Of a stretch of DNA of 64,000 nt, positions 32,775 to 41,064 are shown piece by piece; the stretch's first letter is position 1; each line of letters opens with the position of its first letter. The translations under genes and the position numbers were made by a program. The DNA comes from Chitinophagaceae bacterium IBVUCB2 (GTDB lineage Bacteria > Bacteroidota > Bacteroidia > Chitinophagales > Chitinophagaceae), in assembly GCA_002127295.1 (NCBI GenBank), contig NFUV01000002.1, positions 1-64,000 of the forward strand, given 5' to 3'. A model generated the notes under the pieces. That model was not told the origin of the DNA, did no database searches, and saw only the letters and a program-made list of their open reading frames with translations.

Positions 32775-33426
32775 AACAATGTTAAGTACGTAGGAAAATT
32801 GAAAATGTTGCACCAATGTACGAATTGATTCGTAAAAGCTAGTATAAAAATTTGGTGCTTGATCTGGAGCGGGGCTAGCAGAAGAAAGGGCCAAATCATT
32901 CATAAGTCTTCCGTAGGTGGCTTAAAACTAATTTTTTGGCCGTTGTTGGTCTTCCCAAAATCTTTGAGCCACTTTTCTTGTGTGAGGTATCGTGTATAGC
33001 ACAAAGTAAAACACAACACCAGCAACGGCGTGAAATCACCTGCAGGAAATAATTAACGATCAGGCCATGTTGCAGGACTATCTGTGGCTGCTGGATCAGC
33101 TTATAGCGAATGGTGATTAATTCTCAAATATAATGGCTGGTTTCTCAATACAAGGCGATATGCTTAACCAAATGACAGAGGAGTTAAAGAATCTTATAAG
33201 AGAAGCTAGTTTGAGCAAAAGTAGCATTTGTGTCAGCTATGCAGAATTGCCCAATTTTTTGAACCTTACTAACTAGCATTTTTCATCATACTGCAATGAT
33301 TGACGCAGCGGTAATAGATAATATTGTTCGTAACATGAGAGAAGTGATTTAATATATTAAAGCAGGGTTGCCAGCTATAACATTATTTTTTTATTTTGAT
33401 AAGATTGATAGTAACCGCCCGGATAT
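32775..33426. other. About 650 bp without a supported gene; short decayed coding remnants
   Basis: Between two minus-strand genes lies sequence with only short open stretches on the plus strand. One is a 28-codon stretch ending at 33120 (Leu-rich, including AMLQDYLWLLDQLIANGD). Another is a 47-codon stretch from 33133 to 33276 (MAGFSIQGDMLNQMTEELKN and on), and the last is an 18-codon piece near 33298-33354 (MIDAAVIDNIVRNMREVI). None has a recognisable family. They look like scraps of former genes. The receptor's promoter must also lie here but no clean TAnnTTTG was found. Confidence 0.4.
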
Positions 33427-35079
33427 TTATTTAAATAAGCCATTATAAGTTTCTGCTTTTGCAGCCGTTGTTTCAAAGAAACAGCTTTGATCATTTTGTC
33501 CGGGGCTTCCTTCCCGAACAGTATTTTTAGTATGTTTCAGGCATAAAGCATTGGCATTATTACCCTGCCAGTATTCAACAGTAAAGAGATAAGTTGTTTT
33601 TTCTAATTTCCTTGTCGTTGTTTTCAATCGTTTTATCCGTGTTTCCAACACTTTCCTTATATACTCTGCACTCATACCATTATTGATTTTACCTACACTC
33701 CATTCTTCATTGGTGCCTTTTAAAGGTGTAATGCTAAGCTGGTTGCCATTTACCGCATAAGTGCCGGTTTCATATTGCAGTACATTTACCGGGTTGTTTG
33801 CCACAGCTGATGCTGCATTATAAACAAACCGGTAAGTGCCGTCTTTATTAAATTGATATTGATACAACCAGAACCCGCCTGTATGAAAACCGCTCCTATT
33901 TCCATACGCAGCGCCATGCTTTTCCTGCGACTGCGCTTCCCATATTTTTCCTGCAATCGGGGAGTTTATTTTTGCGTTTGTTGTTGCAGGGTTGGATGGC
34001 TGTACAGTAGCCGCATTAATTGTTTTATTTTCAAAACCTGTTATAAATCCCGGGGGATTATCAATGAGTGAATTATTTATATCTCTTGATTTGTAACGAT
34101 ATTCCTGCAGACCGGTTTTATCACCATTATTTCCGTCTCGTTGAGTGGCTTTCGGCGATCGTAACAAAAGTGTTATTTCATCATTGCCGATATAAGAAGC
34201 AAAGTCTAATGTATATGTTGTTTTTTCTAATTTAAAATCGGTAGAAGCTCGTACCAGTTTTCCCCACCCGGTGGTTCTGCCACTTGCTGCTTTGCTCCAC
34301 CATTCACCTTTACCTTTTTTAGGCGATAGCGTAATTTGATTGCCATTGATAGAGTAAGTCCCTGTTTCATACACAAATAAAATGTCTTTCACATAAACCA
34401 TCCAGTCTTTTGCCCTGAACAGATAAGTGCCATCTCCATAAAAAGCATATTCTCGTCTCATATAACCACCTGTCAATTGATTATACGTTCCGTTTGTTTC
34501 TGTATTATAAAACACCCACATTCCTACAATGGATGCGCTATTTGTATTATTTGCAGGCAAAGTTTTATTGTTAGCAACAGTAGCCGAAGCCTTAGCCAGA
34601 TTTAACGAATTGATAAATGCCAACAATTCGTTTTGATATTGGTTGCTATTGGTCATGAGCACCACACTTACCATTTGTCCGCCACCGGTGGCTGTAAGTA
34701 ATGTAGCCAATCCTTTTTGTTCGCCATCTGTATAGTTGGCGGTACCTGAAATAATATCCCAGCCGTTTTCTTTTACCGGGTCTTGCAGGGCAGGTTTAGT
34801 GCTTACCTCTACGGATGCTTTTACCAGTTTGTCCCAGTCGGTGTTGAAGTTTTCATAAGGGGTAGCATCCGTAGCAGTGGCTTTGGTAATAAGGGCTATG
34901 GCATATCCGCCTGTTTCTTTATCGGTAACAGATAACTGTACACCACCTTCGTTTTGTTGCTGCTGCCAGCCTTTGGGAGGGGTATAGCTCAATACATCAA
35001 AGATTTTTTTTTGTGTATATCCGCTTACACACATGAGTAAGATGGATAGCAACAGCATTAGTTTTTTTAATAGTTGCAT
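33427..35079 (-). CDS. Secreted protein with PsbP-like N domain and two repeated beta modules, unknown function
   Basis: About 550 residues with a signal peptide (MQLLKKLMLLLSILLMCVSGYTQ); the longer frame to 35106 adds nine unlikely residues. Residues ~25-170 resemble the whole 183-residue protein encoded just upstream (both begin F-x3-TF/SYT-x-P-x-GW). The rest contains two similar lipocalin-like modules. One is around GGYMRREYAFYGDGTYLFRA with YETGTYSINGNQITLSPKKG; the other is around FHTGGFWLYQYQFNKDGTYR with YETGTYAVNGNQLSITPLKG. This indicates an internal duplication. It begins 34 bp after its upstream paralogue and is probably co-transcribed. No enzyme motif is seen, and I do not recognise a function. 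Confidence 0.75.
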   Translation of the reverse strand: MQLLKKLMLLLSILLMCVSGYTQKKIFDVLSYTPPKGWQQQQNEGGVQLSVTDKETGGYAIALITKATATDATPYENFNTDWDKLVKASVEVSTKPALQDPVKENGWDIISGTANYTDGEQKGLATLLTATGGGQMVSVVLMTNSNQYQNELLAFINSLNLAKASATVANNKTLPANNTNSASIVGMWVFYNTETNGTYNQLTGGYMRREYAFYGDGTYLFRAKDWMVYVKDILFVYETGTYSINGNQITLSPKKGKGEWWSKAASGRTTGWGKLVRASTDFKLEKTTYTLDFASYIGNDEITLLLRSPKATQRDGNNGDKTGLQEYRYKSRDINNSLIDNPPGFITGFENKTINAATVQPSNPATTNAKINSPIAGKIWEAQSQEKHGAAYGNRSGFHTGGFWLYQYQFNKDGTYRFVYNAASAVANNPVNVLQYETGTYAVNGNQLSITPLKGTNEEWSVGKINNGMSAEYIRKVLETRIKRLKTTTRKLEKTTYLFTVEYWQGNNANALCLKHTKNTVREGSPGQNDQSCFFETTAAKAETYNGLFK

Positions 35080-35113
35080 GGTAACAAGTGTAATAATATT
35101 TAACAAGGGAATT

Positions 35114-35665
35114 TTACATCATCGGAGCAGGTGCTGCAGGTACAGCAGCAGGTGCTGCTTTTCTTTTTGCATTTGTTTGCCCTACTTCATCCAGATCCAT
35201 CTGCAGCGTTTCCATAAACTGGTTAAACTCGCTGATGCAGGTGTTGTTATTGGTAAGCAATTGGTAGTATAGTGTTTGCTTGCCATTGCTGAGCGAATAA
35301 AAATAACTTTGTACAGGAGCCATTTGTTGGGTGCTGGTACCTTTTGAAAAGAAACATATCAATCCATCGCCTTCATATTTTGTAACAGCCCCTCTTTGGT
35401 TTTGATAGCTAATGCCTGCGCCACCGTACAATGTGCGAAATTGAAGGTATTCGGCAGCAGTAGCAACGCCGCCTTTTTCAGTTTTCGAAATGATGATTTT
35501 ACATACCACTCCTTTTTTAGCTGCCTTCTCCAGCGTTACGGTTTCGGTGGTTCTGGTTATTTGCCATCCTGTGGGTACGGTGAATGTTGCTTTGCCAAAA
35601 ATTTCTTGTGCTTTTATTTGAAAAAGCGACAGGAGCATGAAAGTGGTAGTGATAATTTTTTTCAT
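35114..35665 (-). CDS. Secreted single-domain paralogue of the next gene, unknown function
   Basis: A 183-residue protein with a signal peptide (MKKIITTTFMLLSLFQIKAQ) and one domain like the N-terminal part of the neighbour at 33427-35079 (FGKATFTVPTGWQITRT...). It ends in an Ala/Pro-rich tail. It is the first gene of a two-gene unit. Its upstream region has one of three copies of the 18-bp dyad seen around the two-component genes, 51 nt before the ATG, with a TACTTTTA box in between. Function not recognised; export to the periplasm or surface is likely. Confidence 0.75.
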   Translation of the reverse strand: MKKIITTTFMLLSLFQIKAQEIFGKATFTVPTGWQITRTTETVTLEKAAKKGVVCKIIISKTEKGGVATAAEYLQFRTLYGGAGISYQNQRGAVTKYEGDGLICFFSKGTSTQQMAPVQSYFYSLSNGKQTLYYQLLTNNNTCISEFNQFMETLQMDLDEVGQTNAKRKAAPAAVPAAPAPMM

Positions 35666-35686
35666 TGAAATGATGTTTTATGAAGT

Positions 35687-35733
35687 AAAAGTACTTTACT
35701 GCAAAGCCCTTTATTATCGTTAAAAAGCATGAT
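35687..35733 (-). promoter_or_regulatory. Dyad operator copy A plus -7-like box
   Basis: The 18-bp dyad ATCGTTAAAAAGCATGAT lies at 35716-35733. On the minus strand a TACTTTTA box (one mismatch to TAnnTTTG) at 35687-35694 follows after 21 nt, then 21 nt to the ATG at 35665. The layout matches copies B and C. Confidence 0.6.
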
Positions 35734-35737
35734 TTTT

Positions 35738-36958
35738 TTAGTGCAATAGCTTTACATATGCTGCATAATCAAACTTATTGGTAAAATTGTGCAGCAACCG
35801 CAGCGATGAGGGCATGGTTACATACCGAAATGCTATAGTAATGAATTGTGGTGCAGCTGCTCCGGCTGATGAAGTCTTAAAATACGCAGGGTTGTATTGG
35901 TATAAGGGTTCGCTTTTCTTTTCGCCATCGTAAAACTTCCAAAACCGGTTGTAATTGATTTTTTCTTTCAACTTATACTTACTGTTTTGATAAACATCCT
36001 CCGTACGGTTAGTAATGGCCTGTTCATTCAGCCAATCCTCTTTTTCAGTGGCAAGGATTTTTTTTACGATATCAATTTTTTCATTCACCGCTGTTTCCCA
36101 TTCCTCGATTTGCTTTAATCCGCTTTTGTCCCGATCGGCTGTGAAAACAGTAATTGTTTTTACAAACTGTAATTTTTCCCGTTCGTAATATTCCAATAAG
36201 CTTAAGAGATAGGCTTTGCGGCTTACCGGAATTAGCATAGGTACAGTAGTATTTTTTTTTACAAACCAATAGCGGTAAATATGCGGCACACGGGTATTCA
36301 TTTTCACATCCTCCTCTGCTACATCCTGAAAATAATTTTGACCAGTATTGATGGCTTCTAACAATGATGTATTGTTGCAGGATAAGTAATTGAACAGGCT
36401 GATTAGCTTATCTCCAGGTTTGTTAAGATTATTTTTCCAATCGGCATATTGAAAACCAAAATTTTTATCGCCCATTCTATCGTCAAATGTTCTTTTGATA
36501 AAACGATTCAATGTGTTTAGCGGAATGGCGTTTGCATAAACTCGTAACACAGTACCATATTCGCTATTTCGTTTTTGTTTTCCGCTGGCGCAAAAGAATT
36601 CATAGTGAGCTGTCTGCAAGTAATAGCTGCCCATTTTGGTATTTCCTGCATATTCATACCTGTTGCTGGAGAAAGTGCTTTCCCAATTACCTCCAGTGAG
36701 GGTAAAGCCTATTCGACTTTGCTGCTCAGTTTTTTCTACCTGCTCCAATGTTTTTTTAGCGATGGCTTTGTCGGCTACTGTTTTCAGATTTATAAAATAG
36801 TCAGCCCTTGCTGCAGGCCAGGGATGTTGGGCGGCTGTAAGGTATTGGCCGGGTGCTGCATCTAACTCTTCACGGGTTTTGCAGTTTTGGGCATAGCTGC
36901 TTTGTATGTATACCATAGCTGCAGATACCAGCATAATTTTCTTTAGTATTTCTTTCAT
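35738..36958 (-). CDS. Secreted protein of unknown function
   Basis: About 406 residues with a signal peptide (MKEILKKIMLVSAAMVYIQSSYAQ); the frame can be extended by eight residues to 36982, but the ATG at 36958 gives a normal signal. The mature part is rich in Lys, Asn and Tyr, with mixed charge, and looks mostly helical in its second half (RKAYLLSLLEYYEREKLQFVK; QIEEWETAVNEKIDIVKKIL). There is no transmembrane segment and no motif I recognise. Two or three cysteines are present (NCKTREEL, FFCASGK, LSCNN). A loose version of the dyad lies upstream near 37024-37037, too degenerate to count. It is flanked by regulon-like genes, so a shared role is possible. Confidence 0.7.
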   Translation of the reverse strand: MKEILKKIMLVSAAMVYIQSSYAQNCKTREELDAAPGQYLTAAQHPWPAARADYFINLKTVADKAIAKKTLEQVEKTEQQSRIGFTLTGGNWESTFSSNRYEYAGNTKMGSYYLQTAHYEFFCASGKQKRNSEYGTVLRVYANAIPLNTLNRFIKRTFDDRMGDKNFGFQYADWKNNLNKPGDKLISLFNYLSCNNTSLLEAINTGQNYFQDVAEEDVKMNTRVPHIYRYWFVKKNTTVPMLIPVSRKAYLLSLLEYYEREKLQFVKTITVFTADRDKSGLKQIEEWETAVNEKIDIVKKILATEKEDWLNEQAITNRTEDVYQNSKYKLKEKINYNRFWKFYDGEKKSEPLYQYNPAYFKTSSAGAAAPQFITIAFRYVTMPSSLRLLHNFTNKFDYAAYVKLLH

Positions 36959-37074
36959 TGTCTTTATATTATAGTTCTCCAAAAATTATCGACAAGGTTT
37001 TTTCTTTTCTGTTGCAGCAGTACATCAAAAGAAGATGCAAATATTTTTATCGCTTCATTTTTTTATTTATCATT

Positions 37075-37896
37075 TCATTTCCCGTAATAAGTATAAACAG
37101 TAGTATCTGTTTGCATCAACGTATTACCCGGCTGCATGTATATATTCAATATTCTTTGGGTTACTAATCCTATATCATCTGTCTGGTATTGGTATTCTAC
37201 TGTTTGCCTTATGGCTTTGTTGTTTAGCTTATCGTAATAAGTAGTTTTTTGCAGCAGATTTTTTGATAATTTTCCATAAAAAGAAACTGGCAACCCTGCA
37301 CTGTAAAAACCAGCTCGATAGGGCATATTGGCGGCATATTCATACACCACAGAATCTAATGCATTAGGGATGCCGGGACTTATGCCTATGCGTTCGGAAA
37401 TATAATAGGTAGCTGTATTGTTTGTATAATAGTATTGGGCTTTATTGATATAGCCCGAAAAATAGTTAGCCGCATTAGACAATGTGCCATCTGTATTGTA
37501 ATTGTATTTAGCAGATTGTGTAACTGTGCCGTTGTTCAAAATCCAACTGCTATCTACATATCCTGCTGCATTCAGCTTATCGTATGTTTTTGAGTTTGAT
37601 AACGTACCGTTGTTATACTGTTCAGCTGTATAAATGCCATTACTAAGCGTATGCGTATAGCTATGTACAGTTCCCATGGAGGTGCGGCGGGTGTACCGGT
37701 AGGTATTGCCTTCATAAAGGTAGTTGGTTGTATCGAAGGATAGGTTTGAAGACGTGCCATTATAGTTTCTTACTGAATGCGTGGCTGTTTTTATTTTGTA
37801 TTGGCTATAATCAATAGCCGGCAACGGTGTTATTTTTTCTTTTGAGCAGGATAGCAATACAATGCTTACTAAAATAACGGAGCATATTTTTTTCAT
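37075..37896 (-). CDS. YD-repeat-like lipoprotein, unknown function
   Basis: A 273-residue lipoprotein with lipobox LLSC (Cys17). The mature part is made of short beta repeats rich in Tyr, Asn and Thr: YKIKTATHSVRNYNGT, YLYEGNTYRYTRRT, KYNYNTDGTLSNAANYF, EYQYQTDDIGLVTQRILNIY. This resembles wall-associated YD/RHS-like strands found in many Bacteroidota surface lipoproteins. It is divergent from the sensor kinase gene. The shared 165-bp region has two copies of the 18-bp dyad. Function not known; a surface or periplasmic role is inferred from the lipid anchor. Confidence 0.78.
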   Translation of the reverse strand: MKKICSVILVSIVLLSCSKEKITPLPAIDYSQYKIKTATHSVRNYNGTSSNLSFDTTNYLYEGNTYRYTRRTSMGTVHSYTHTLSNGIYTAEQYNNGTLSNSKTYDKLNAAGYVDSSWILNNGTVTQSAKYNYNTDGTLSNAANYFSGYINKAQYYYTNNTATYYISERIGISPGIPNALDSVVYEYAANMPYRAGFYSAGLPVSFYGKLSKNLLQKTTYYDKLNNKAIRQTVEYQYQTDDIGLVTQRILNIYMQPGNTLMQTDTTVYTYYGK

Positions 37897-37915
37897 TACT
37901 TGTAATTTTATAAGA

Positions 37916-37963
37916 TAAAAGTACCGTCATGCTATGCCTGTTGCTATCGTTAAAAAAGATGAT
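37916..37963 (-). promoter_or_regulatory. Dyad operator copy B plus -7-like box
   Basis: The dyad ATCGTTAAAAAAGATGAT lies at 37946-37963. TACTTTTA at 37916-37923 follows on the minus strand after 22 nt, then 19 nt to the ATG at 37896. It serves the lipoprotein gene. Confidence 0.6.
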
Positions 37964-37986
37964 TTTTAAAACCCATCATCTAAAAA

Positions 37987-38034
37987 ATCATTAAAAAGAA
38001 TGATATGCCTCTTTTGAAAAACCGGCTTAATTTG
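37987..38034 (+). promoter_or_regulatory. Dyad operator copy C plus -7-like box
   Basis: A perfect dyad ATCATT-AAAAAG-AATGAT lies at 37987-38004. TTAATTTG at 38027-38034 (one mismatch to TAnnTTTG) follows after 22 nt, then 26 nt to the kinase ATG. Copies B and C start 41 bp apart and face divergent genes. Confidence 0.6.
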
Positions 38035-38060
38035 TATTACTTATTAATTCATTTCAGCGA

Positions 38061-40004
38061 ATGAAACTTTTTCTTCTTTTTGGTCTATTATGTATTGGAT
38101 TGGTTCCATTGCAGGCGCAGGAGACTATTGCGAAGAGAGATAGTTTGCTGCAAATAACCCGCTCAGCTAAGGAGGATACAAATAAAGTAAAAGCCTTGTT
38201 GGCATTAGCCGATTTATTTGAAAACAATGAGCCCGAAAAAGCAATAGCCTATAACAGGCAGGCAGGCATCCTGAGTAATAAGCTGCACTTCGAAAAAGGT
38301 ATAATGAGTTCTTATAGAAACCTGGCATATATCTATACATTACAATCCCGCTACGATTCATTGTTACATTTCAGCAAGCTGGTGTACCAGATGGCGGAAA
38401 AGAAGAATGATACCTACAATATGGGTGTATCTCTTTTTAATATGTCAGAGGGCTATAAGTTTTTGGGCGATTATGAAAAATGCATTGACTATACTTTCAG
38501 AGCTATGAAAATACTGGAGGGCAAGGGCTATCATTCGATAGAAGCTCATTTATTTTCTGGTCTCCAGTCTACTTATTATAAGCTGAAGCAGTACGACAGG
38601 TCAATAGAGTATGGACTGAAAGGCATTGAGTTGGCGAGGCAGTATAAAAATGAGAGTATACTGATGGTGTTGCTGGAAAATATGGGCCATTGTTATACCG
38701 ACATAAAGCAATACACTAAAGCCGATGGACTTTTTGATGAGGCAATAAGCCTTGCACATAAGAATGAAAATAAGTTCACTGAAATAATTTGTTACGAAGG
38801 CAAGGTGGATATAGCGTTGCATGGAAAAAGATACAGTGATATAAAGCAATACGCTGACCGAACGATGCAATTGAGCCTGGAGACAGGCGATTCTTCGGGT
38901 ATTTGTGTGTCGTACCACAACCTTGGCCTGTATAACCTGCTAACAAAAAATTTTGATAAAGCGTATGAAGATGGGCTGGCTTCTTTAAAGATAGCACATG
39001 AAAATAAGTTCACTGAACATGAGGCGAAGATCCTGAACCTGCTGGCGACCATCAGTGCCGCAAGAAACGATATTGCCGGCTCTATTGAATACGGTAACAT
39101 GGCGAGAGAATTGAATGATAAAATATTTACGGAAGGCGTAGCAAAAAAAGATGCAGAGATGCGTACGTTGTACGAAACAGCAAAGAAGGAAGACCAGATT
39201 GAATTGCAACGGGCGCAACTCAAACAAAAATCTACCCTCAACTATTTGTTAATAGCGGGGGCAGCAGCAATGCTACTCATTTCCTTGCTTAGCTATCGCA
39301 ACTACAAACACCGACAAAAGCTACAACAGGCAAAAATTGATGAGTTCGAAACAGAAAAATTACTGACCGCCACAGAAGCTGTACTTAAGGGAGAAGAGCA
39401 GGAGCGAAGCCGCCTTGCTAAAGATCTTCACGACGGGTTAGGAGGTATGCTCAGTGGTATAAAACATTCATTAAGCAGTATGAAAGAAAATTTAATTATG
39501 ACGCCGGATAATGCACAGGCTTTTGAAAGGAGCATTGATATGCTGAATTCTTCTATCAGTGAAATGCGCAGGGTGGCACATAATATGATGCCTGAGATGC
39601 TGGTGAAGTATGGATTAGACACGGCGTTGAAGGAATTTTGTCATGAAATTAAAGCCAGTGGAGCTGTAAACGTAAATTACCAAGTCATAGGAATGGATAA
39701 GGCAAATATTGATCAAACTGTCTCAGTAACTATTTATCGAATTGCACAGGAGTTAATTAACAACGCTATTAAACATGGGAAAGCCAATGATGTACTGGTG
39801 CAGCTTCACTTGCATAAACAGGAGAAACTATTGGCCTTAACAGTGGAAGATGATGGAATTGGCTTCGATGTAAATTCGTTAAATGAATCAAAAGGAATTG
39901 GGTGGAAAAATATTCAAAGCCGGGTAGATTTTTTACAAGGGAAACTAGATGTTCAATCAGAACCCGGAAATGGGACATCTGTAATGATTGAAATTAATAC
40001 CTGA
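38061..40004 (+). CDS. TPR sensor histidine kinase (HisKA_3/NarX type)
   Basis: A 647-residue membrane kinase. A signal peptide (MKLFLLFGLLCIGLVPLQAQ) is followed by a periplasmic TPR array (residues ~40-350; e.g. NNEPEKAIAYNRQAGILSNK, KQYDRSIEYGLKGIELARQY). There is one transmembrane helix at about 393-413, then a short coiled coil. The HisKA_3 phospho-acceptor is His457 in RSRLAKDLHDGLGGML. The ATPase domain has an N box (ELINNAIKHGKAN) and G box (VEDDGIGFD). It presumably phosphorylates the response regulator encoded next, with stop and start overlapping by 1 nt. The TPR part probably senses a protein or envelope state. Dyad copy C upstream suggests autoregulation. Confidence 0.95.
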   Translation: MKLFLLFGLLCIGLVPLQAQETIAKRDSLLQITRSAKEDTNKVKALLALADLFENNEPEKAIAYNRQAGILSNKLHFEKGIMSSYRNLAYIYTLQSRYDSLLHFSKLVYQMAEKKNDTYNMGVSLFNMSEGYKFLGDYEKCIDYTFRAMKILEGKGYHSIEAHLFSGLQSTYYKLKQYDRSIEYGLKGIELARQYKNESILMVLLENMGHCYTDIKQYTKADGLFDEAISLAHKNENKFTEIICYEGKVDIALHGKRYSDIKQYADRTMQLSLETGDSSGICVSYHNLGLYNLLTKNFDKAYEDGLASLKIAHENKFTEHEAKILNLLATISAARNDIAGSIEYGNMARELNDKIFTEGVAKKDAEMRTLYETAKKEDQIELQRAQLKQKSTLNYLLIAGAAAMLLISLLSYRNYKHRQKLQQAKIDEFETEKLLTATEAVLKGEEQERSRLAKDLHDGLGGMLSGIKHSLSSMKENLIMTPDNAQAFERSIDMLNSSISEMRRVAHNMMPEMLVKYGLDTALKEFCHEIKASGAVNVNYQVIGMDKANIDQTVSVTIYRIAQELINNAIKHGKANDVLVQLHLHKQEKLLALTVEDDGIGFDVNSLNESKGIGWKNIQSRVDFLQGKLDVQSEPGNGTSVMIEINT

Positions 40005-40630
40005 TGGCAATAAGTATATTTATTGTGGATGACCACTACATGGTAATAGAGGGCATTCGTTCTTTATTGCAAAATGAAGACACAATTGAATGGATGGGAC
40101 ATGCTACCAATGCTGCCTCTTGTCTCAGTTTTTTAAAGCAGCAACAACCCGATGTAATTTTAATGGATGTTAGTTTGCCCGACAGGAATGGAACGGAGCT
40201 TTGTAAGGAGGTAAAAGAATTATACCCGTCTGTATTAGTGTTGGGTCTTAGTACATTTAACCAACAAGCTGTTATACGCAATATGGTGGATAACGGTGCA
40301 GCTGGCTACTTACTGAAAAATGCCTCAAAAAATGAGATACTGGAAGCTATTACTTCTGCTTCAAAGGGAAAGCAATATTTAAGTTTTGAAGCTGCACTTT
40401 CAATGAAAGCACCGGATAAAAAAATGCCTGTCATTACCCGCAGGGAAAAAGAAATATTGCTGCTGATCGCAGAAGGTCTTACCAACGCAGAAATGGCGGA
40501 AAGGTTGTTTATCAGCATCCCTACTGTAAATACACATCGTAAAAGCCTTTTAGAAAAATTTGATGTAAAAAATACTGCTTTGCTGATAGGCAAGGCTATA
40601 AAATTTGGTTTTGTACAAAATGAAATTTAA
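40004..40630 (+). CDS. NarL/LuxR-type response regulator
   Basis: A 208-residue regulator. The receiver domain has the acidic pair Asp9-Asp10 and phospho-acceptor Asp55 (VILMDVSLPD), with Lys in GYLLKNAS. The C-terminal LuxR-type HTH spans about residues 139-200 (ITRREKEILLLIAEGLTNAEMAERLF, then SIPTVNTHRKSLLEKF). NarL-type HTH dimers bind inverted repeats, which fits the nearby 18-bp dyads. Translationally coupled to the kinase (TGATG overlap). Confidence 0.96.
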   Translation: MAISIFIVDDHYMVIEGIRSLLQNEDTIEWMGHATNAASCLSFLKQQQPDVILMDVSLPDRNGTELCKEVKELYPSVLVLGLSTFNQQAVIRNMVDNGAAGYLLKNASKNEILEAITSASKGKQYLSFEAALSMKAPDKKMPVITRREKEILLLIAEGLTNAEMAERLFISIPTVNTHRKSLLEKFDVKNTALLIGKAIKFGFVQNEI

Positions 40631-40653
40631 ACCGTCCAACGTAGCTGTACCTG

Positions 40654-40796
40654 ATGCCTAGGGTTTATGAACTCACGACCCATCTCGGCAATGTGCTAAG
40701 TACTATTTCGGATAAGAAGATCGGCAATGATAGCAGTGGTGTAGTCAATTATTATATTGCAGAAGTTCTTTCTCAAAATGATTACTATCCCGAAGT
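40654..40796 (+). pseudogene. RHS-repeat core domain remnant
   Basis: A short stretch reads YELTTHLGNVLSTISDKKIG, continues through NYYIAEVLSQNDYYP, and then diverges. This is the conserved core of Bacteroidota RHS/YD-repeat proteins, where the motif normally continues DYYPFGM. Here the match stops after DYYP, and there is no large RHS gene upstream, only the response regulator. The open frame runs on to 40857 with unrelated residues. It is therefore a fragment of a lost RHS gene, which encoded a large surface or toxin-delivery protein. Confidence 0.75.
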
Positions 40797-40806
40797 GATA
40801 GTAATC
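40780..40806. repeat. Perfect 10-bp inverted repeat at the end of the RHS match
   Basis: GATTACTATC (40780-40789) and GATAGTAATC (40797-40806) are separated by 7 nt. The left arm is the RHS codons for DYY; the right arm is where the match is lost. It may be a rearrangement scar. Confidence 0.5.
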
Positions 40807-40856
40807 AAATCTGTGGAAAACCTTATGCAGACTGCTTTATCAAAGAAAAATGATTA

Positions 40857-41064
40857 AACTATTTACGCAAAAAAGTGAATTTTTTTGCCAAAATACTGAG
40901 TGAATGGGTCAGTATGAAAATGAGGGGTCGTTTTTTAAAAACTTTGAATGTTTTATAAGTGATAGCAGGGAAAGATGTCCTGAATTTGCCATAACCCTTG
41001 CAGATAAATAGTGCTGTACGATTCTATTGGTAAGTAATACTTAATTGCTTAAGCTTTTCCTGTC
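40857..41064. other. Spacer with a possible IS-end remnant
   Basis: This is the rest of the 434-bp non-genic stretch 40631-41064. Around 40900-40930 it contains TGGGTCAGTATGAAAATGAG followed by GGGTCG, a repeated GGGTC pattern reminiscent of IS21-type ends. No transposase is present. The remainder shows nothing recognisable. Confidence 0.3.

Follow-up and report, generated by a model that had tools for sequence, protein, structure and literature searches.

The first 64,000 nucleotides of contig NFUV01000002.1 from Chitinophagaceae bacterium IBVUCB2 (the window) hold three copies of an 18-bp dyad, ATCRTTAAAAARNATGAT, placed upstream of the genes for a two-component system and for exported-looking proteins encoded beside it. 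Its position and its distribution among relatives make the dyad a very probable operator of the adjacent NarL/LuxR-type regulator, and the sensor-regulator pair very probably controls its own genes as well as exported-protein genes through the three copies. For the mechanism as a whole, in which the dyads would be operators of the regulator encoded at 40004-40630 and three promoters would be activated from them, we estimate a probability of about 0.8. From a single sequence rule (a dyad, 22 nt and a -7 box), a widespread regulon of exported proteins is predicted, apparently not described before. An earlier sequence-only reading of the same DNA had proposed a self-controlled regulon of exported proteins around the dyads; comparison with other genomes supports that proposal, with binding and activation as its predicted parts, and the dyad is more general than that reading could see.

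The sensor histidine kinase (38061..40004, plus strand) begins with a hydrophobic N-terminus followed by a TPR array, a transmembrane segment at about residues 392-411, HisKA_3 (His457) and HATPase_c; its hydrophobic peaks lie at 1-19 and 392-411, and Pfam recognizes TPR_12, HisKA_3 and HATPase_c. Its gene overlaps by one base that of the NarL/FixJ-type response regulator (40004..40630, plus strand), which combines a REC domain (invariant Asp55) with GerE and carries the recognition helix IPTVNTHRKSLLE. Response_reg (85.4 bits) and GerE (57 bits) both score over their cut-offs, giving the NarL/FixJ (LuxR-type) domain layout. In the proposed mechanism, the TPR domain of the kinase, predicted to be periplasmic, would read an envelope signal, on which the kinase would phosphorylate the regulator. 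The regulator would then bind as a dimer to the inverted repeat (ATCAT-N8-ATGAT), which immediately precedes promoters whose -7 box is sigma-A-like. The centre of the dyad lies about 41-44 bp before the likely transcription start, where a class II activator would sit, and binding there is proposed to recruit RNA polymerase. Three promoters would be switched on: that of the kinase and regulator themselves (self-activation), that of a divergent lipoprotein gene (perhaps with the gene for M406 behind it) and that of a two-gene unit encoding S183 and S550. The binding, its dependence on phosphorylation, the positive sign of the control, the envelope origin of the signal and the transcription starts are inferred from the patterns set out below.

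Dyads and Promoters in the Window

Exact matches to the dyad occur at 35716-35733, 37946-37963 and 37987-38004, the three sites named by the sequence-only reading, and no fourth exact copy was found anywhere else in the 64-kb window, as that reading had also held. The first (minus strand), read as ATCATGCTTTTTAACGAT towards its gene, is predicted to serve the S183-S550 promoter as operator; the second (minus strand), assigned to the lipoprotein promoter, reads ATCATCTTTTTTAACGAT; the third (plus strand), ATCATTAAAAAGAATGAT, is the predicted operator of the kinase-regulator promoter. Across the whole genome (3,998,833 bases in 3 contigs), these three remain the only exact copies. With up to two mismatches allowed, 32 matches were retrieved against 18 for a backward-read control pattern, so loose near-matches by themselves mean little. 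A box at the right distance accompanies only the three window copies among 30 of those 32 near-matches (the two without a locus were left out), which is the outcome of the genome-wide search for dyad plus box that had been suggested. A wider regulon of the window regulator in its own genome was accordingly rejected, the examined near-matches outside the locus being without a box at the right distance. The modest excess of near-matches over the control is also what could favor reading the dyads as products of chance or of A+T-rich composition. The exact dyad, however, appeared in none of 100 dinucleotide shuffles of the window, and the comparative evidence, including a geometry fixed across 51 related systems, reduces that reading to a negligible probability.

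A -7-like box follows each dyad at 22 nt: TACTTTTA at 35686-35693 (minus strand) for S183 and again at 37916-37923 (minus strand) for the lipoprotein, and TTAATTTG at 38027-38034 (plus strand) for the kinase. The start codon lies 20, 19 and 26 nt beyond the box, respectively. The boxes themselves had been correctly picked out by eye; the gaps of 21, 22 and 22 nt and the box-to-start distances of 21, 19 and 26 nt given at the time are right for the second and third promoters and each one off for the first. The description of the three layouts as matching holds for distance but not for orientation. In all three dyads the plus strand carries the A-rich centre. The two target promoters consequently face the T-rich form (ATCATNYTTTTTAAYGAT), the kinase promoter faces the A-rich one, and each orientation in the window is paired with a distinct kind of box.

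In class II activation by regulators of the LuxR/NarL type, the operator is typically an inverted repeat of some 18-20 bp with its centre near -41.5. The layout in the window differs from this general scheme in its TAnnTTTG-like Bacteroidota -7 box and in having one outward-facing dyad for each promoter of a divergent pair. Passages of PMC7366714 and PMC9723704 give a TAnnTTTG-like consensus for the Bacteroidota -7 box, which in Flavobacterium psychrophilum spans -12 to -5 (PMC9723704). Setting the window boxes at -12 to -5 places the dyad centre at about -43.5, and a box two or three bases further downstream places it at about -41, relative to a predicted start; either placement would suit a class II activator. 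A further reading takes the dyads for bidirectional terminators or RNA elements. In its favor are their inverted-repeat form and the T runs behind some of them, but they lie upstream of the -7 box and hence outside the predicted transcript. Four stretches around them gave weak folds (-2.8 to -5.2 kcal/mol, z 0.23 to -1.36), and positions 33000-41000 gave no Rfam match at gathering scores. With weak folds and no Rfam family, the terminator or RNA-element reading was rejected as scarcely credible.

Conservation in Related Systems

Related kinase-regulator systems were collected from the genus and from 80 bacterial-genome loci, the best 80 of 573 relatives (at least 592 pattern stretches), which include Chitinophagaceae, Pedobacter, Niabella, Emticicia, Cyclobacteriaceae, Chryseolinea and Gelidibacter. 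The 104 systems came to 100 without duplicates and to 96 once L078, L087, L099 and L148, with too little upstream sequence, had been dropped. Sorted by one position of the recognition helix, the 96 comprise 53 with N (T[VI]N.H), 36 with D, 5 with E and 2 unread. The sequence-only reading had named conservation of site and spacing in relatives as a check, and both were found, in the closest relative retrieved and in the 53 N systems. In that relative (G015, locus L034), whose regulator is 83% identical, the three sites recur with their boxes at the same places as in the window: the S183 promoter reads ATCATTGTTTTTAACGAT-22 nt-TACTTTTA and the lipoprotein promoter ATCATCTTTTTGAATGAT-22 nt-TACTTTTA, while the kinase-side dyad has two mismatches and TTTG at offset 26.

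The 30.6 kb of kinase-upstream DNA in the 96 systems contain ATC-N12-GAT 106 times (3.46/kb), versus 32 times in 176.6 kb of kinase open reading frames (ORFs; 0.18/kb), and the upstream total compares with a mean of 9.5 and a maximum of 19 in 200 mononucleotide shuffles. A dyad with at most three mismatches stands by the kinase start in 53 of 53 N systems. It lies between 260 nt upstream of the called start and 40 nt inside it in 51 of these, and in the other two, L115 and L145, it falls 50-98 nt inside a kinase ORF called over-long. The last two dyads start 33-43 bp apart in 34 N systems. From the kinase-side dyad, TTTG starts 24-29 nt downstream in 48 of 51 systems and at exactly 26 in 38 (shuffle mean 2.2, maximum 7). 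On the divergent side, TA.TTTT[AG] is present in 31 of 51, always at offset 22 (shuffle mean 0.14, maximum 3, for offsets 19-24).

Two counts from the divergent side weigh against regulation wholly by activation from the dyad. The TA.TTTT[AG] box at 22 is missing in 20 of 51 systems, and TTG occupies offset -1, over the gene-side edge of the dyad at the place of a -33 element, in 27 of 51; on the kinase side of the 51 systems, TTG holds no fixed position. Target promoters may therefore keep part of a -33 element and not be fully activator-dependent. These TTG triplets also lend some color to the view that the regulator binds the dyads but represses, covering the -33 region until phosphorylation alters binding. 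So do the opposite form faced by the kinase promoter and the greater degeneracy of the kinase-side copy, which is exact in 9 of 34 pairs as against 21 of 34 for the distal, divergent-side copy; kinase and target promoters could thus be controlled differently. Repression is nevertheless unlikely. Both the fixed dyad-to-box distance and the dyad centre, near -41 to -44, agree with class II activation, and the full TTTG of a -33 motif was found at no fixed position between dyad and box on either side (commonest offset, 5 of 51).

The link between the dyad and the adjacent regulator draws further support from a sample of 396 genomes of the order, in which regulators were scored in bits against that of the window and dyad occurrence tracks regulator class. 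A regulator of at least 297 bits, a line set after the scores were known, is present in 13 genomes, with 12 TVN helices and one TVS. The 16 lower-scoring loci (L205-L220) yielded 14 readable helices, all TVD, TVE or TIE. The exact dyad occurs in 12 of the 13 top-scoring genomes (22 copies) versus 17 of the 383 others (17 copies), and the backward control pattern gave 3 matches in total in the 396. Leaving aside the three window copies and five without a locus, 12 of 14 copies in the top-scoring group have a box at offset 22 or 26, compared with 0 of 17 in the other group. Conversely, 14 of 17 copies in the other group are covered on one strand by an ORF of 100 or more codons, compared with 2 of 14 in the top group; in those two (L224 and L229), an alternative start further upstream gives an ORF running to the divergent side. 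In four top-group loci (L221, L227, L237 and L238), the dyad precedes exported-looking genes, and no kinase start was read on its opposite side. One genome, G387, counts against a strict association, as it has a TVN regulator and no exact dyad.

That the dyads are instead operators of another DNA-binding protein, which merely co-occurs with these systems, keeps some room in that binding by the adjacent regulator is predicted. The presence of a dyad near the kinase start in every one of the 53 TVN systems, its tracking of regulator class across the 396 genomes and a dyad type that differs between regulator subclasses, two of them within one genome, make this very improbable.

Regulator Subclasses and Dyad Types

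The adjacent regulator as reader of the dyad is also consistent with how half-sites vary between subclasses. Bases 4-5 of the half-site are AT in 107 of 146 cases among N systems; among D systems (64 half-sites), they are CC in 33, CT in 17 and AT in 4, and TVD.H regulators thus stand mostly with ATCCC-type dyads. By majority label, the 89 N and D systems divide into 40 N/A, 3 N/C, 22 D/C, 2 D/A, 5 mixed and 17 without a scorable dyad. A regular expression recovered kinase-side dyads in 17 of 36 D systems, with L093 (18 nt spacing) doubtful; L170 and L178 have the same layout by eye, and the class C loci are without that layout.

Several of these data speak against a tight match of helix and operator. 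Three TVN systems (L150, L152 and L159) are labelled C and three (L131, L155 and L171) mixed, while two TVD systems (L088 and L093) are labelled A and two (L090 and L177) mixed; under a stricter rule, the full dyad is not scorable in 7 TVN and 10 TVD systems. All N systems but L171, whose dyad is mixed, group in one well-supported clade (52 systems). A tree built without the helix columns (omitting L092, L095 and rows neither N nor D) leaves a single independent N/D pair, so that the association of N/D with A/C amounts to one evolutionary event. Counts resting on one independent contrast fit a regulator-operator match without proving which residue matters, and by themselves are no proof that the regulator reads the dyad. 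Residue-level coevolution as proof was rejected on this ground, strong as the counts are.

The genome of the window also encodes a TVD-class pair, at C1:684420. A dyad of type ATCCNNTAAAAANNGGAT (at most one mismatch) has 12 matches in this genome versus 2 for the backward control. Four of the 12 precede the TVD kinase with its divergent lipoprotein-like gene (C1:687088), an S183 paralog (C1:131248, E 3e-44) and two S550 homologs (C1:696366, E 1e-31; C2:940987, E 3e-34). The box expression matches at the S183 paralog (offset 21) and at C2:940987 (offset 22), and the divergent side of C1:687088 and C1:696366 have T-rich box-like stretches by eye only. Behind the other eight dyads, no such gene was found, one of them (L260) having a box match and no ORF behind it. 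The TVD-class pair and its dyads are thus a candidate second regulon, and the recurrence of S183 and S550 kinds behind both dyad types suggests that the same kinds of exported protein stand under two dyad types in one cell.

These observations invite a broader picture, on which we would place a little less than an even bet. Bacteroidota may possess an expanded family of locally wired, insulated two-component systems, each consisting of a TPR kinase, a NarL-type regulator, an outward-facing pair of 18-bp operators and a divergent exported gene. After duplication, helix and operator would change together (TVN.H with ATCAT, TVD.H with ATCCC), so that paralogous exported families would fall under parallel regulons free of cross-talk. 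In the genome of the window, S183-S550 would come under the first type, and the S183 paralog and two S550 homologs under the second. Two regulator subclasses in one genome would offer a natural test of how paralogous regulators stay apart. The predicted binding site is directly testable, and the layout recurs by related pairs in many Bacteroidota.

Two further dyad forms were noted in passing. A third, more distant pair in the same genome (C2:999162-999764, L090) has the dyad ATCCCGTAAAAGGGTGAT, and the class with the helix ISLHTVDSH (L088, L094 and L096-L098) has near-perfect palindromes of type ATCCCCTGAACAGGGGAT by its kinases.

Divergent Targets

A divergent ORF was found in 44 of the 53 N systems, and by blastp these targets fall into 15 unrelated groups. 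Their exported nature, as proposed by the sequence-only reading, is borne out by a rule based on a hydrophobic N-terminus, which 41 of the 44 pass versus 3 of 96 regulators. Pfam was run on 20 of the 44 and gave four matches over the curated cut-off (TIG, PKD with Fib_succ_major, LamG and TPR); matches under it, including one to Lipocalin_4 just short, were treated as noise. Unrelated families that share hydrophobic N-termini suggest that the common theme of the targets is predicted export and not one biochemical activity.

One exported-looking family of divergent targets was modelled with the Hcp tube fold of type VI secretion, despite a signal-peptide-like N-terminus. Its members include L123:2084-2743, L113:2333-2872, L117, L118, L133, L136, L153 and L155. 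Foldseek E values are about 2e-7 to 8e-7 and target template modeling (TM) scores 0.63-0.77 for the ten best matches, with a predicted local distance difference test (pLDDT) score of 73; no Pfam match was found in the three members scanned (L123, L113 and L153).

Relation to Known Systems

The window pair is very probably an autoregulated LuxR-type two-component system and, as far as its domains and layout indicate, of a known kind. To our knowledge, few regulator binding sites of Bacteroidota two-component systems have been defined, and the nearest studied system we know of is FimS/FimR of Porphyromonas gingivalis. FimS has TPR motifs in a periplasmic sensor domain, as is predicted for the window kinase, and its partner FimR exerts positive control over surface structures and binds to the mfa1 promoter in an electrophoretic mobility shift assay (according to passages of PMC11053733 and PMC1974823). 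The window kinase has the FimS-like succession of N-terminal signal or transmembrane segment, TPR array, transmembrane segment, HisKA_3 and HATPase_c. It scores 57.4 bits against the NCBIfam FimS model (NF053520), whose cut-off is 600, and so would work like FimS without being filed as one. The main text of PMC1974823 contains none of the words palindrom-, inverted repeat, binding site and consensus. Unlike the FimR targets, those of the window type are lipoprotein-like or exported-looking, with no fimbrial family among those scanned with Pfam.

MctS/MctR, LiaS, UhpB and NarX/NarL belong to the same kinase (HisKA_3) and NarL-type regulator superfamilies as the window pair. The best NCBIfam models, MctS (129.5 bits, cut-off 700) and MctR (162.9 bits, cut-off 300), fall below equivalog level, and the MctS, LiaS, UhpB and NarX-type models are all far under their equivalog cut-offs, the kinase alignment covering the catalytic half. 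Among the matches listed for the open-access literature, a scope that leaves out most subscription papers, no description of the dyad or its layout was found.

Genes of the Locus

The 273-residue lipoprotein-like protein divergent from the kinase (37075..37896, minus strand) has an LLSC lipobox by eye and no known domain; earlier called YD-repeat-like, it matches nothing in Pfam or NCBIfam. S183 (35114..35665, minus strand; 183 residues), exported-looking, is separated by 34 nt from S550 (33427..35079, minus strand), the second gene of the unit, likewise exported-looking. S550 has an N-terminal FDVLSYTPPKGW stretch and a Lipocalin_4 match of 33.7 bits (cut-off 22.4), and its homologs recur adjoining other kinase-regulator pairs. 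The model of S183 (pLDDT 77) suggests a PsbP/Mog1-like fold, with BT_1490, Tsi3 and PsbP as best matches and EagT6/SciW, LpqN and DcrB lower (query TM-scores about 0.4-0.55). Of six aligned S183 homologs (window, L034 and L109-L112), the L112 ORF stops before a C-terminal alanine-proline tail (about RKAAPAAPAAPAPMM) that is conserved in the other five. M406 (35738..36958, minus strand; 406 residues) has no Pfam match; its gene is the only one of its type behind the window lipoprotein gene, after a gap of 116 nt, and in the closest relative (L034:9021-11535) two M406-type genes lie close behind the lipoprotein gene.

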